The translations under genes and the position numbers were made by a program. Below the pieces are notes generated by a model, which was not told where the DNA came from, searched no databases, and saw only the letters and a program-made list of their open reading frames with translations. Of a stretch of DNA of 64,000 nucleotides, positions 5,318 to 61,081 are shown one piece after another. This DNA is from Xanthostigma xanthostigma. Lineage: Eukaryota; Arthropoda; Insecta; Raphidioptera; Raphidiidae. The stretch lies in the NCBI GenBank assembly GCA_963575645.1, contig OY754469.1:18370001-18434000 (forward strand), given 5' to 3'. Each line of letters begins with the position of its first letter. The first letter of the stretch is position 1.

Positions 5318-6166
5318 TTTCACGGTTTTAATACGATTATTTTAGTGTTTTATCTGCCTCTGTTCTAAAAAGCACTGCATGCAGGTGACTCACTCAAGTC
5401 ACTTAATCGTAAACTAGAATTAGTCGTTAATTATAATAATCATACCGGCTTCTTCAGGTACATTGGAATGCATAGACGGATAGAATGAATTGTGTTTTCG
5501 CCGCATAGTACACAGTAATTATAAATTAGTTTTTAATTTCGATAAAGAAGTAACGGGCGTACACGCATTTTTTTTTTAATTAAAATTCAATATTGCCAGA
5601 GATTTATTAATAATTTCATAACCGCAATGGATAAGGTTCAGAAAGACCGAAGAGGTTTAAATTTGATTGAATGTTGTATTGTCATCAGAGACCTGTAAGT
5701 ATGCAAAAGAATCCCGCACAAACCTTATGGGATTTGGTTCTCGGTAAATTTGATTGAAAATGGATTTATTTTAAAGTTTAAAGGTCACTAAAAAGTGTCC
5801 ATGGGCGCATAGTCTAAAAACCAATAGATTTTTAGCGACAGATATGTTTAACGAGATTGTGTAGATATGGGGATAGCCATTGAATTCACAATGTTAAAAA
5901 TCCTAAGCTTTAAAAATAAGTTTTCGAGTGCGCTAAATCTGAATATGACATTTTTATTTTATACAGAGTGCGACACCTTCCAGCATTACCTAATTTTCGA
6001 CTATTTTTCTATTTCTAAAAAAAAGCACAAAAGTTGAACATGAAACATGCTTGTGAATTCAATGGATATGATGATATCCCTATATCTAAAACCTCGCTAA
6101 ACATAATATATGTACCTAAAAATCTATTGTTTTTTAGATTATGTGCCCTAAACTATAAAATAAATA

Positions 6167-6460
6167 TATAGTTAAAAAAAACTAAAAAACACGCTTTATA
6201 ACGATCTAAAAAGTAAAAAATATTTTTTTTAAAATAAGCTTAAAAAGCGTGGGGCGCTCGATGTACGAAAATGTGGAACATAGCGCCCCACGCTTTTTAA
6301 GCTTATTTAAAAAAAAATATTTTTTACTTTTTAGTTCGATATAAAGCGTGTTTTTTAGTTTTTTTTAACTACCTATATATTTATTTTTCACTTTTTAGTT
6401 TGATATAAAGCGTGTTTTTTAGTTTTTTTTAAACTATATTCAGTTTCCACTTTTTAGTTC
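6167..6460. mobile_element. Fold-back MITE with GC-rich AGCGCCCCACGC palindrome
   Basis: The left arm (about 6168-6257) and right arm (about 6281-6377) are near-complements through the block TTAAAAAGCGTGGGGCGCT, with a loop of about 24 nt. A further direct half-copy of the outer end (CACTTTTTAGTTTGATATAA) follows at about 6385-6440, so one end is duplicated. It belongs to the same family as 4921-5220. Non-coding. Confidence 0.8.
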
Positions 6461-15244: not shown

Positions 15245-15489
15245 GATGTTCGGATTAAGAACTTCTTCGGAGCATAATATCAAAAACAAAAGCAATACTA
15301 TGGTAGAAATTGCATTTATTATTCTGACGTTTCAACAAATATTTTTGTCATCTTCAGAGCATAACCGCATTTAAGCTCCGAAGATGACAAAAATATTTGT
15401 CGAAACGTCAGCATAATAAATGCAATTTCTACCATAGTATTGCTTTTGCGTTTGATGCTATGCTACGAAGAAGTTCTTCATCCAAACAT
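15245..15489. mobile_element. Long hairpin MITE, arms of about 115 bp
   Basis: The arms 15245-15361 and about 15373-15489 are inverted copies with few mismatches, sharing GAAGAACTTCTTCG, GCAATACTATGGTAGAAATT and a CGTTTC...GAAGATGACA core, around a short loop. Each arm carries a CTGAAGA/CCGAAGA - short stem - GAAACGT block that recurs in other elements of the window. No coding capacity. Confidence 0.85.
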
Positions 15490-32301: not shown

Positions 32302-32893
32302 CTCAGTTGGAATTTGGTCACACAATGGTCATCGATGTGGCTTTGCTAATCACAACTGAAGGCCGCTGCACATGAGGCTGGAAACGCTGCTAGAAACACT
32401 GCTTGGACTTCTGCTGGCCGGCAGACCGGGTACGAGGCTGGAAATGACGTCACCGCTTGCTAACTCACAAGATAGATTTTAAATTTAGAACAGGTGCTAT
32501 TTTTCTTGCTAGGTCTCATGCTTGCTCTGAGCAAAAGCCAATCAGGGTACAGTATCTTGTCACGTGGGCGACATTAACAAACGCTCACAAACTAACATGG
32601 CGTCATTCTGCTCAGAGTCAGACAACAGACACGTTTTGCTCTGTGCTTATATTTGAACTGTCACTGCGCGCGCACCAGATCTCCATAATACAAGCTCGAA
32701 AAGACGTCTCGCGTGAAGCTAGCACATAAAAGCAATTAAGAAAACCAGCGCTAGAAAACTAGTAGTCAAATCTAGCAAGGAATTTAGCAGCAAATCCAGC
32801 CTCGTGTGCAGCGGCCTTAAGTTGGCACAAACCAAGTTAACATTTGGTCACACAATGCTCACTAATGAGGCATTTCTAATCACAACTGAAGGC
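32302..32893. repeat. 60-bp direct repeats flanking a Harbinger-like element
   Basis: TTTGGTCACACAATGGTCAT and CTAATCACAACTGAAGG at about 32314-32361 recur, with small changes (ATTTGGTCACACAATGCTCA and CTAATCACAACTGAAGG), at about 32843-32893. The 458-bp Harbinger-like element lies between them. Either the host sequence was already a tandem repeat or a rearrangement duplicated the flank. Confidence 0.7.
32360..32817. mobile_element. PIF/Harbinger-like element, copy 1
   Basis: The ends AGGCCGCTGCACATGAGGCT and the complement (CCTCGTGTGCAGCGGCCT) bound 458 bp. Flanking trinucleotides are TGA and TAA, a probable decayed 3-bp duplication. The related copy at 48218-48598 has an exact TTA duplication. 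A 3-bp T-A-rich target and G-rich ends are typical of PIF/Harbinger. It contains an internal frame of 90 codons (32457-32729), which is not a transposase. Confidence 0.75.
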
Positions 32894-32900
32894 GTTGTAA

Positions 32901-33317
32901 AGGCCACTGCACACAAGGCTGGATTTGCCGCTAGATTTGACTACTAGTTTCTAGCGCTGGATTTCTTGATTGGCTTGTGTGCTCGCTTCACGCGAGACGT
33001 CTTTTTAACCTTGTTTTGTGGATGTATCTGATGCGCGCGCCGTGACAGTTCAAATATATAAACACAGAGCAAAACGTGTCTGTTGTCTGACTCTGAGCAG
33101 AATGACGCCATGTTGGTTTGTGGGCGTTTGTTAATGTCACCCACGTGACAAGATAGTTTCCGGATAGGTTTTTGCTCAGAGCAAGCAGAGGATCTAATAA
33201 GAAATATAGCCCCTGTTCTAATTTTAAAAGCTATCTTGAAGGCTAGCAGGCGAGCCCGCAGTGACGCATTTCCAGCCTTGTACCCAGCCTGCCGGCCAGT
33301 AAAAGTCCAAGCAGTGT
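32901..33317. mobile_element. PIF/Harbinger-like element, copy 2, inverted and truncated
   Basis: It starts AGGCCACTGCACACAAGGCT after TAA and runs opposite to copy 1. Shared blocks are CTCTGAGCAGAATGACG and AGCCTGCCGGCCAGTA. It stops near 33317, about 35 bp before the expected end, so one terminal repeat is lost and it can no longer move. Copies 1 and 2 face each other about 80 bp apart, which makes a large imperfect hairpin of this locus. Confidence 0.75.
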
Positions 33318-40779: not shown

Positions 40780-41031
40780 TTTAAAAAGCATTTTTTACTT
40801 TTTAGTCGATGTATTTTTAAATTCAAGTTTTAATTATAACCTTAAAACTATGTTTATATAAATCATTTATATATATTTATATAAATTATTGTATTATCAC
40901 GGCTTCAAACAGCAACATGAAGTCCTACTAAATCGAGCTGGGGAACTTTCTATTGCTGTTCAACAAAATTTTTATATTTAAAAATTATTTTTTACTTTTT
41001 AGTCCACATTGCTATAAAAGAGTTTTTTTTA
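40780..41031. mobile_element. Divergent copy of the TTTTTAGTTCG fold-back family
   Basis: AAGCATTTTTTACTTTTTAG (about 40787) and ATTATTTTTTACTTTTTAGT (about 40983), followed by CCACATTGCTATAAAAGAGT, match the end blocks of the elements at 4921 and 6167. Here both are in the same orientation, so the copy is rearranged. Its right end runs straight into the perfect palindrome at 41032. Confidence 0.5.
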
Positions 41032-41213
41032 AAACTTTAATTTTAATTCATTGTCATCTATGTTAAAATATTTCCACACAAGTCAACATTATTTAATTTT
41101 ATTAGACTTTTTGACAGTACGTGTACACTGTCAAAAAGTCTAATAAAATTAAATAATGTTGACTTGTGTGGAAATATTTTAACATAGATGACAATGAATT
41201 AAAATTAAAGTTT
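41032..41213. repeat. Perfect palindrome, 87-bp arms and 8-nt loop
   Basis: Every base of 41032-41118 pairs with 41127-41213 around the loop 41119-41126. I matched the arms by eye and found no mismatch. The arms contain TTGTCATCTATGTTAAAATA and TTAATTTTATTAGACTTTTT. The outer few bases of the neighbouring TTTTTAGTTCG element continue the symmetry with a one-base slip. No coding potential. It looks like a recent inverted duplication or a fold-back element. Confidence 0.92.
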
Positions 41214-41820
41214 AAAAAAACTCTGAAGGACATTTACCATGTCAAAAATTTAGTGCTTTTATTCATAAATCCATGCGATGCTAATAATAATAATTCAATA
41301 TTCAGTCAACGGTTTTGGTCTAGCATTTGATGGGTATTCGGTATTTTATTGGTTTTGAGATTCGTTACATCTATAGTATAAATTAGTTGTTGCAATTTAC
41401 AACAAAAACACGATTTATATTAACAAACGGAAGGAAGGGAATAGCACAGAAACTGAGGATTATTTTTAATCTGTAGGCAGTTTAACCGATATCTTTAAAA
41501 TAGCGCTTATACTACCACTTTAAATATATCTGAGAGTAATTTAATAAAACTTCATATTTATGACATAAGTTCGTCATTATGTTAGTCACATTAAATAAAA
41601 GTTTAAAGTTACATATAGCCTGTTGCAAAAACTATCTCAATGTTAATATTTACCAGCCGTCTTTGATAACAACTCTTTGTATTAAACATCATTCTTTGCA
41701 AATAAAATCCAGTTCAAAAACAAGTTCAGAGACAAACCTAGGACTGGCAACTGAGCACCAAAAATTCACATTTAAATGATTTCTATTAAACGCATCCATA
41801 CACACACACACAACGAACAG

Positions 41821-44785: not shown

Positions 44786-45837
44786 AACTTCCCGCTATTT
44801 TCGAGTTTAAAACGCTCAAAAATATATAAAGCATAGCAAAAAGTTTATTTTTTAGCTCTTCGAGCTCAAAAAAAACACTTTGTTACGAAATTTTCGTTCA
44901 CGATATCTCATGAACAAATGAACCGATTTTGATGCGATTTGCGGTAGTCGGCGCAATTTTTTAATCTAAAAAAGTAATTTATTACAGAAAAATCGATCTC
45001 ATAGGAATTTTACGAGTAATTTTTAAAAAAAAGTTTTTTACATCTTTTTCGTTCACGATATCTCGTGAACAAAAGAGCCGATTTTGATGCGGTTTGCGGC
45101 GATGGCCGCAGTTTTTTTAACCTAAGAAAGTGAATTATAACAAAAAAATCGATTTGGTAAGAATTTTACGAGTAATTTTAAAAAATTACTTTTTTCCTAA
45201 TTTTTCGTTCACGTTATCTCATGAACAAACGAACCAATTTTGATCTGGTTTGCAGCGATCGACGCAGTTTTTTTATCCTAAGAAAGTAATTTATTACAAA
45301 AAAATCGATCTGATAACAATTTTAAGAGTCATTTTAAAAAAACACTTTTTACGATTTTTTGATCACGCTATCTCGTGAACAAATGAACCGATTTTGATGC
45401 GGTTTGCGGAAATCGACGCAGCTTGTTAAGGAGAAGAGCTGATTAGACTTTGGAATTAATCGCTTTAGTAGTTTAGAAAATATTTTATAAAAACCAATTT
45501 TTAAAAATTTTTGAAACTTGTTTTTTTAAGATTTCTCCAAATTTTTTAGGCCGAATCGTTTCAAATTTTCAGGAAATCTAAGTTCACCAAGATCACGTCA
45601 GATGCCGCAAACCGCGTTTCAGGCGGACACTTCGTTCAAAAGACATAAAAGGTTTACTTACATACACACACACACACTCACACACAGCCCTACGGACATC
45701 ATCGTCAAAATAGTTTCAATAGTTTCCTAGGACCTCAAAACGTCGAGATCTGGCGAAAACTCGATTTTCGAAAATCGGGGTGAAACCAATAACTTCCCGA
45801 TTTTTGAAAAAAAAAATTTATTTTTTAGTGGGAAGTT
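44786..45837. mobile_element. Terminal-inverted-repeat element with internal 155-bp tandem array
   Basis: The ends are AACTTCCCGCTA and the complement of AACTTCCCACTA (11 of 12 match), bounding 1,052 bp. Inside are four tandem units of about 155 bp (see next entry). A CA simple repeat (about 45663-45687) is followed by a GC-richer tail with ACGTCGAGATCTGGCGAAAA and AAAATCGGGGTGAAACC and a second internal AACTTCCCG (45791). There is no coding frame. The array suggests that it expands by slippage or rolling-circle-like events, but the termini are not Helitron-like. Confidence 0.6.
44891..45420. repeat. Tandem repeat, about 155-bp unit, four copies
   Basis: The anchor TTCGTTCACG/TGATCACG occurs at about 44894, 45049, 45205 and 45360, that is at 154-156-bp steps. 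Each copy continues with ATCTC(A/G)TGAACAAA, CCGATTTTGATGCG and an AAAAAATCGAT block. Copies differ at scattered positions, so the array is not recent. Confidence 0.85.
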
Positions 45838-51789: not shown

Positions 51790-52066
51790 CTTGGTTACCA
51801 AGAAGGAACCTTGGAACTATTTTTTTTAAGAATAAATAAATGAATATAATAATTATTAATAATCGAAATAAATTTTTAGAATTTAAGATAGAACCGATAA
51901 AAAGATGATTAGGTAAGAGTAATTGAAATTACAAATGGAATCAAAAATTTTACTAGGTATTAGGTAATCATTAAAATTATGAATGCTGATAATTTAAATA
52001 GATACTGGGGATTCATTAAATTAAAATAATTAATCAAAGTATAGATCTGGGTATTTTAATTTAATT

Positions 52067-52854
52067 ATGGAGGGAGAAATTGGGAACAATGCATTAATGA
52101 TAATGTTGGAACAAATAAGCGAACAAATGAAACGGGAAAGCAGGGAAAGTAGGGAACAAAGCGAAATATTTCAATTGTCGATAAACGGGAAGATAAATAG
52201 TTTACGGGAAGAAATAAAACAAATATGTAGGGTATCAGTACAAGAGAATACACAAATTTTAGGGGAAAAGATAAATCCAAACGGGGTAGAAATAAAACAG
52301 ATCGGGGAAGAATTACAAAAAACAGAAACAAAATTAAAGGAACACATTGTAGTCACACATAAAGAAGAATTACAGGCTGATGAATTCAAAGACATTAGTA
52401 ATACAATTCTAGACAAATTTTGTTCAGATATTTGCGAAATAAAATTAGTAGGTATCGTACCAGAAATCGGACGCATTGATGAAGTAGAATTGAAACAAAT
52501 TAATAAAGGCCACGCTGACAGTTTTAATATTATGCAATCATCTGAAATTTATACCATAGATAATAATAATTCTAGTAGATTATTTTTAGATTTTTTGCTA
52601 AAAAAATTCGATATCTTAAATAAGTCGGGGTTTAATAGTTCAACGGGGTTCACACCAAACGAATTAATGCTTCAGAAAAAACTACCTTCAGTAGTAGAAA
52701 GATCATTAACAAAACGATTTTGTTTAATATATGAAGGTCCGTTTAAAGTAAAAGGGGCAGTTTCGGATAATACGAATATCATTGTCGAGCCGAATTCAAA
52801 GTCAGGGGTACGTTTAATGTAAATTCATTAAGACCGTATTATAATTCATTGTAG
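52067..52854 (+). pseudogene. Gag-start fused to integrase-end remnant
   Basis: The 251-codon frame opens at 52067, about 295 bp past the LTR. Residues 1-100 are Glu/Gln/Lys-rich with a coiled-coil-like EQMKRESRESREQSE stretch, as in the N-terminus of insect gag proteins. Residues 188-226 switch to the end of integrase: STGFTPNELMLQKK, then LIYEGPFKVKG (the GPY/F-type module). A one-base slip near codon 245 moves the pol ending (RGTFNVNSLRPYYNSL, stop at 52852-52854) out of frame, so the frame stops early at 52822. All catalytic regions between are deleted. The product could at most make a gag-like peptide. No intact virus-like gene is present. Confidence 0.8.
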
Positions 52855-59840: not shown

Positions 59841-60228
59841 AGTGTTCTAATCAGACGTTAATCAAAGATTTTTTTAATTCAGTTTAAGTTAGAACTGTTT
59901 TTGTGTGTTTGTGAAAAAACATTCTATATGATACCACAAAATGAAATGCTGTTTTAAAAAAGGTAAAAAAATTATTTTTCTTTATTTATTTAAAAGCAAA
60001 TTTTTATTAGCGTTGAACGTACATATTTTTAAATAGTTAATTAAATGTACGTGAAAAATTTATTTTTTAACCTCGGAAGGGTTCATGTACTTTTAAAATG
60101 TTTGTTTTTTTTTACAATTTAGGTATAAATAAAATGTATTATGTAAATCTAATTTGTTTGTGTTGTAAAGAGGCTATTTTCATACTACAGCTATTAAGAC
60201 AGAGTGTTTTATGATATAATACTATATA
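59841..60228. other. No feature seen
   Basis: AT-rich DNA with long A and T runs, ending at the TA that borders the giant palindrome. Confidence 0.4.
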
Positions 60229-60899
60229 CAGTATGGTTTTTTAAAAACCGAACACCCTTTTATTTCTTAGAGGAAGGGTTTTCGAAAAAAAAGTTTCGGA
60301 CAAAAATTACACGGAATCAAGGGGGAAGAACAGTGATGTAGTTTTTTTTTCGTTTGGTGGAGGTGTCTCCAAAATATCAAGGTCACCTACACTTTCTTAA
60401 ATACGACCCTGTATTTTTTATCTAGGATTATTGTTCTTTGGGTCAAAGAGATCAACTCTTGTACCAAACATTTTTGGATTTGATGCCATCGTGAACCGCT
60501 GTTTGATTCTCAATTCATCCCGTTTCCTATTTTAGTGGATTGTGTGAGTCGGAAAAACCCCTGAAAAAGTTTTTTCCGACTCACACAATCCACTAAAATA
60601 GGAAACGGGATGAATTGAGAATCAAACAGCGGTTCACGATGGCATCAAATCCAAAAATGTTTGGTACAAGAGTTGATCTCTTTGACCCAAAGAACAATAA
60701 TCCTAGATAAAAAATACAGGGTCGTATTTAAGAAAGTGTAGGTGACCTTGATATTTTGGAGACACCTCCACCAAACGAAAAAAAAAACTACATCACTGTT
60801 CTTCCCCCTTGATTCCGTGTAATTTTTGTCCGAAACTTTTTTTCGAAAACCCTTCCTCTAAGAAATAAAAGGGTGTTCGGTTTTTAAAAAACCATACTG
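60229..60899. mobile_element. Giant near-perfect palindrome with Tc1/mariner-like ends
   Basis: The arms 60229-60557 and 60571-60899 pair across their whole length around a 13-nt spacer. The only differences I find are two compensating one-base changes in homopolymer runs (8 A against 7 T near 60285, and 9 T against 10 A near 60342). The ends are CAGTATGGTTTTTTAAAAAC and the complement, flanked by TA on both sides (the symmetry extends to 60223-60905). A CAGT start with TA target suits Tc1/mariner. No transposase frame is present. If transcribed, it would give a hairpin RNA of about 330 bp. Confidence 0.92.
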
Positions 60900-61081
60900 T
60901 ATATAAAGCATTCCCAGGATAACGCTGTAAAGTCTATACAAACAAATCAAATTGTAATCGGTCCAGCGGATTTCAGGTTTATAGCAAACACAGACAGACG
61001 TGACAAGACTGTATATATGAATTTGACTCTATTCAATAAATAGAGTTACTGTGATCCATTAAAGTTAATGATAGGTAATTG

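Follow-up and report, generated by a model that had tools for sequence, protein, structure and literature searches.

The window, i.e. the whole 64,000-nucleotide stretch of Xanthostigma xanthostigma DNA analysed here (contig OY754469.1, positions 18,370,001 to 18,434,000), contains a nearly perfect palindrome at positions 60229-60899 that we confirmed to be real and that we call a palindromic (snap-back), non-autonomous MITE, behaving as a TA-targeting cut-and-paste transposon. The explanation that we favour, and that we consider likely, is a young palindromic non-autonomous DNA transposon (snap-back MITE) that is mobilised in trans and is subject to fold-back synthesis and to breakage at the hairpin tip. 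Recency and turnover, rather than maintenance, are the main reason for the perfection of the window copy; its perfect appearance comes from its recency and probably also from the copying of its two mutations from arm to arm.

Results

The palindrome and its arms

The first-pass annotation had described a giant near-perfect palindrome at this place, and the description was borne out, with arms of 329 nt around a 13-nt spacer (please see Table 1 for coordinates). Alignment of the arms, which had been proposed as a check, gave no substitutions and two one-base homopolymer indels, one in an A-run and one in a T-run, that cancel in length. The CAGT-like ends and TA flanks attributed to the palindrome are indeed present, and the inverted symmetry spans 60223-60905 with TATATA at each outer end. 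The arms account for 658 bp of the 671-bp element, long inverted arms that make up most of an element being characteristic of foldback elements. The predicted RNA fold of the palindrome has an energy of -595.4 kcal/mol compared to -151 +/- 7 for 20 dinucleotide shuffles, and the palindrome is therefore far beyond chance; a single strand is predicted to fold into roughly one perfect stem.

Table 1 Features of the palindromic element. Positions are those of the window. Column Basis denotes the analysis from which each feature was derived.
Feature	Position	Strand	Basis
TA, left copy of presumed target duplication, in TATATA context	60227..60228		sequence; flank counts, 65 ends
30-bp terminal segment including TA, common to a second palindromic family with different arms	60227..60256	+	end-pattern search, fetched copies
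Left arm, 329 nt	60229..60557	+	arm alignment
Two derived substitutions, 60306 G>A and 60312 G>C, versus family consensus	60306..60312	+	copy comparison, assembly search
13-nt spacer, i.e. hairpin loop	60558..60570		arm alignment
Right arm, 329 nt, reverse complement of left arm	60571..60899	-	arm alignment
Identical two derived substitutions, right arm	60817..60823	-	copy comparison
Right-end 30-bp terminal segment including TA	60872..60901	-	arm alignment, end-pattern search
TA, right copy of presumed target duplication, in TATATA context	60900..60901		sequence; flank counts

A dispersed family of copies

The assembly that we searched comprises 623 Mb in 28 contigs. A 27-base end pattern allowing up to 3 mismatches occurred at 684 sites (341 + 343), compared to 1 site (0 + 1) for the reversed control, and an arm-internal 26-mer with two positions left free occurred at 264 sites. 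The search with 322 arm bases gave at least 96 matches from the best 40 of 988 candidates, and the long matches were 93-100% identical. Many near-identical copies produced by ordinary MITE amplification, an outcome that the first-pass annotation had named as counting against its own reading, were thus found, the copies numbering in the hundreds. A scan of viral contigs, which may omit near records, gave 0 exact matches to a 28-base end pattern.

We sampled 40 copies according to how closely one of their arms resembled the window arm, i.e. the youngest-looking part of the family. Both arms are near full length in 21 of these, 13 are one-ended, and in the other 6 (L002, L003, L019, L023, L024, L036) the arms are partial or carry internal deletions. 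The flanks mostly differ, as they should for dispersed copies of a MITE, and some copies have common flanking repeats. The further properties of a MITE, i.e. a short (671 bp) and non-coding element with terminal inverted repeats, are also present. With E values up to 1 allowed, ten translation pieces from the arm frames hit no Pfam family; a host gene captured in the arm was considered, an ATG-starting open piece being present, yet it was rejected in view of these ten pieces.

Two observations concern the surroundings of particular copies. L004, L006 and L040 share both flanks, as do L010 and L036, which may reflect repeat insertion at one older-repeat site or duplicated loci. In L030 (L030:1125-1804) the flanks of the copy form an inverted repeat of their own (254 bp, 98.8%), for a total symmetry of ~1.2 kb, as though the copy had landed precisely in the middle of another palindrome.

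Insertion site and search for a transposase

Flanking bases were counted only at ends carrying TA. Outside the terminal TA of 65 such ends, the first base is A in 63, the second is T in 62 and the third is A in 58. TATA is found on both sides in 20 of the 24 elements with both flanks, and the remaining four (L006, L012, L019, L032) have the TA and no matching 4-bp repeat. From these flanks we infer a TA target duplication, the alternative being a 4-bp duplication of TATA. L004, L006 and L040 occupy the same position in one older repeat, whose copies agree at 89-94% over the longer flank; their better arms are 1-3 changes from the family consensus and their other arms 2-13. Judging from these sequences, we read the three as apparent cases of repeated insertion into one TATA site.

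The element ends are TACAGTATGG...CCATACTGTA. A fold-back Tc1/mariner derivative had been suggested at first pass; a fold-back derivative of a DNA transposon with CAGT-like ends and TA stands, and Tc1/mariner is a possible assignment, to which TA and the CAGT ends point. Single-armed relatives with a transposase had also been expected. Single-armed copies exist but look like deletion derivatives, and this expectation was not supported.

Searches with transposase domains gave at least 95 matches for PF13358 (best 150 of 276 candidates scored) and at least 150 for PF03184 (best 150 of 317 candidates scored). As possible autonomous partners we read one Tc1 family (L055, L056; 2 copies) and eight pogo-like elements (L057-L064), and rejected them because their ends differ; no transposase with the ends of the palindrome was found among these elements and the 100 listed end sites. 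The Tc1-like family is very young in its own right: L055 and L056, whose ends lie near TATACGAGCCCCGTCCCG, are 100% identical over 1703 bp, and together with 36 more places they make up a set of 38, among the 95 DDE_3 matches listed, with an equal score and a 224-aa open frame. Separately, ~80 of the 150 scored DDE_1 (pogo/Tigger) matches (hand count) lie in G000 C10:8.67-16.36 Mb, ~7.7 Mb of the 623-Mb genome, many of them with long intact frames.

A second family using the same ends

Of the 684 end sites, the 100 listed first are all exact, and an unpaired site may have an inexact partner. Thirty-two of these 100 form 16 face-to-face pairs, 505-843 bp in size, and no face-to-face pair of transposase-carrying size was found among the 100. 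Twelve of the 68 unpaired sites, the first on contig C1 by list order, were fetched with ~1 kb each. Eight belong to the window family; in the other four (L065, L067, L069, L076) only the first 30 bp are common and the arms are others, L069 being a palindrome over 57-877 with 86% identity. Because these four share the 30 bp and differ in their arms, at least two palindromic families use one set of ends, and some of the 684 end-pattern sites are those of the second family.

Loops and the 84-bp central unit

The window copy has one loop of 13 nt; elsewhere the usual spacer is 12 nt and is found in both orientations. Loop counts were obtained from two scripts combined with maps of the copies. A loop was recognisable in 44 of 52 sampled copies, with one loop in 24, two in 17 and three in 3, and the spacing between loops in multi-loop copies is 84 bp (85 in one copy). 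After orienting, 13 of the 17 two-loop copies have one common arrangement and 4 depart from it (L022, L023, L025, L040); the loops have mixed orientation in 2 of the 3 three-loop copies (L021, L035), the third (L073) being only partly resolved. The spacer inversion expected of a palindrome corrected by template switching is hence present in both classes. In the part of PMC8604942 available to us, loop inversion and arm homogenisation are the two hallmarks of template switching between inverted-repeat arms in yeast. The loop inversions of this family, together with the both-arm changes described below, point to template switching from arm to arm.

Derived changes in one arm and in both arms

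Across 24 two-armed copies, 144 derived substitutions are found in one arm and 13 in both arms, compared to 0.27 coincidences expected; a subset of 21 of these copies has 115 and 12, respectively. Not one of 20,000 random re-pairings of the arms of the 24 copies gave as few differences as the real pairs, and mean arm divergence in the 21 copies is 1.67% within an element versus 1.99% between elements. Changes private to one sampled copy make up 11 of the 13 both-arm changes and 100 of the 144 one-arm changes, and 2 of the 13 both-arm changes also occur in other sampled copies.

The window copy has just two changes, each of them in both arms. This double variant occurs twice in the whole assembly, once per window arm, and among the 97 lettered matches listed for the 26-mer with free positions, one has the first change alone and the rest have the ancestral bases. 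One of the two shared variants of L015 was tested genome-wide and is present in L015's own two arms only, and the shared variant of L039 has one further occurrence in the assembly besides the two arms of L039. Private both-arm changes, as expected of a palindrome corrected by template switching, are thus seen in the window copy and in L015, and partly in L039. Arms that share changes arisen within the lineage of one element need copying between them. According to the first-pass annotation, such symmetry must be either very recent or kept by gene conversion. Recency mostly holds; gene conversion is partly supported for the window copy and a minority of others but not as a general rule. As a general keeper of the family's symmetry it was rejected, 144 of 157 derived substitutions being one-armed, and homogenisation is not the rule because most derived changes stay in one arm.

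One-ended copies

In the 13 one-ended copies among the 40 sampled, one arm is complete and the loop is preserved, except that L027 stops inside the loop and that the outermost bases of L038 are lost or changed; no second end was found within ~9.3-9.5 kb beyond. Beyond the last loop, the copies retain -6, 5, 5, 8, 18, 19, 20, 21, 22, 22, 31, 62 and 86 bases, and in the last of these (L008) a further arm fragment seems to follow. Eleven of the 13 breakpoints lie in the loop or no more than 31 of 331 nt past it (binomial 3e-10 versus uniform breaks). Two copies of an extra sample, with 1 kb fetched, stop ~11 nt past the loop (L068) and before the loop (L070). In L020 the truncated arm joins the flanking repeat at position 95-100, while two-ended copies abut this repeat at position 1-5; the junction is inside the repeat, and therefore the loss of the second arm and of flank came after the insertion. 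One comparison places L011 in line with this. The one-ended copies would be explained if an extruded hairpin broke near its tip, presumably through a nuclease.

Other features of the window

There are 13 further self-symmetric repeats in the window, of 115-922 bp and 68-95% self-identity, all less perfect than the palindrome studied here. These palindrome-like repeats include one of 922 bp and ~80% identity at 32396-33317, and others at 15246-15489, 6157-6387 and 41019-41224 (95%). A tandem array with a 156-bp unit (3.6 copies, 81% matches) occupies 44869-45421, and a 262-aa open frame at 52034-52822 has no Pfam match above the cut-off. Rfam at gathering scores gave no match in the window, and ARAGORN gave no tRNA.

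Discussion

Alternative explanations

Private both-arm variants could also stem from a source element that has since transposed away or that the assembly lacks. The arms of the window copy would then be identical solely by recency, with both changes inherited from the source copy and no arm-to-arm copying at this locus. Cut-and-paste elements move and a source can vanish, and the excess of one-arm over both-arm changes indicates mostly independent divergence of the arms. However, the double variant is in no other copy of the assembly, and likewise one variant of L015; moreover, a vanished source would also have needed its changes in both arms, which merely places the copying earlier. We regard recency as the sole cause as rather unlikely, and prefer recency together with copying between the arms. 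Long-read libraries are known to produce inverted duplications as an artefact, and the palindrome could in principle be an assembly or library fold-back product. Against this, the left and right flanks are distinct outside TATA, the target context of the family is seen on either side, homopolymer differences exist between the arms, and 20 other two-armed copies are present among the 40 sampled, so that an artefact is extremely improbable.

The one-ended copies might instead be products of aborted copying during replicative spread, with synthesis stopping just past the hairpin tip. This is where the breakpoints lie, and two copies of the sister family (1 kb fetched) also stop near the arm end, but the junction of L020, and more weakly that of L011, with flanking repeats at internal positions disfavours such an origin. 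We consider it distinctly unlikely and retain breakage near the tip as the preferred reading. RNA silencing by the palindrome, which the first-pass annotation had raised, is physically possible: as an hpRNA-like locus, a read-through transcript would give a 329-bp hairpin and, from it, siRNAs against this family and others with the same ends. Drosophila hpRNA/endo-siRNA loci are reportedly the subject of Okamura 2008. The near-perfect predicted RNA hairpin (-595 kcal/mol) is consistent with such a locus, and, as the 30-bp end is common to the second family, siRNAs from one family could also target the other. On the other hand, the ten arm translation pieces match nothing in Pfam, plain amplification would account for the hundreds of copies, and in 19 of the 40 sampled copies at least one arm is no longer near full length. 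A silencing locus is, in our judgement, highly unlikely, and a mobile element remains our preferred reading.

Comparison to known systems

The comparisons below refer to those parts of the cited papers that were available to us. In Anopheles gambiae, six palindromic repeats are among the novel MITE-like clusters, and palindromic repeats of C. elegans are cited in the same paper (PMC3212995). Like these animal palindromic MITEs, the present copies are dispersed repeats of a few hundred bp or longer without known autonomous relatives; unlike them, as far as that part of the paper goes, the window copy has near-identical arms, an 84-bp unit varies in number at the centre, and counts are given here for tip deletions and for arm homogenisation. 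Foldback elements with internal repeat variation are also known, e.g. Tetris of Drosophila virilis (PMC4079207), and the long inverted arms of Galileo have been discussed as breakage points, with breakage at folded arms proposed (PMC2775673). Long inverted arms, internal variation in repeat number and non-coding copies are common to Tetris, Galileo and the present family, whereas the two-armed copies here are only ~0.66-0.85 kb, with the repeat unit central. Unlike the target duplications of 8-10 bp in Tetris (PMC4079207), the target here is TA/TATA, and the flanks agree solely in this context.

Both arm homogenisation and spacer inversion, as in yeast template switching (PMC8604942), have counterparts here, although the repeats in the yeast case are short and those here are ~330-nt arms in a transposon family. 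The long inverted repeat potentially giving hairpin RNA resembles the Drosophila hpRNA/endo-siRNA loci (PMC10317233); unlike those loci, at least as that part of the source describes them, the present family has hundreds of dispersed copies and a hairpin known from the predicted fold alone.

Proposed mechanism and meaning

In the mechanism that we propose, a transposase supplied in trans would recognise the TACAGTATGG... ends, and the element would be inserted at TA within TATATA. Each copy is one long hairpin, and fold-back DNA synthesis would decide its later fate. From time to time, one arm may be copied onto the other by template switching, which may also flip the loop, and a break near the hairpin tip would delete one arm and the adjacent flank.

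Palindromic MITEs are already known. In this family, correction from arm to arm is detectable but minor, and loss by deletion near the tip is common. Our literature searches of open-licence PMC papers found no study in which arm homogenisation and tip deletion were counted over the copies of one palindromic MITE. The persistence of unstable palindromes is hard to study, and with many copies in one genome their birth, correction and death can be counted. We tentatively suggest that the family may serve as a natural assay of palindrome metabolism, in which germ-line arm correction, loop flips, 84-bp central growth and death by tip breaks within ~30 nt could be followed while transposition replaces the losses.
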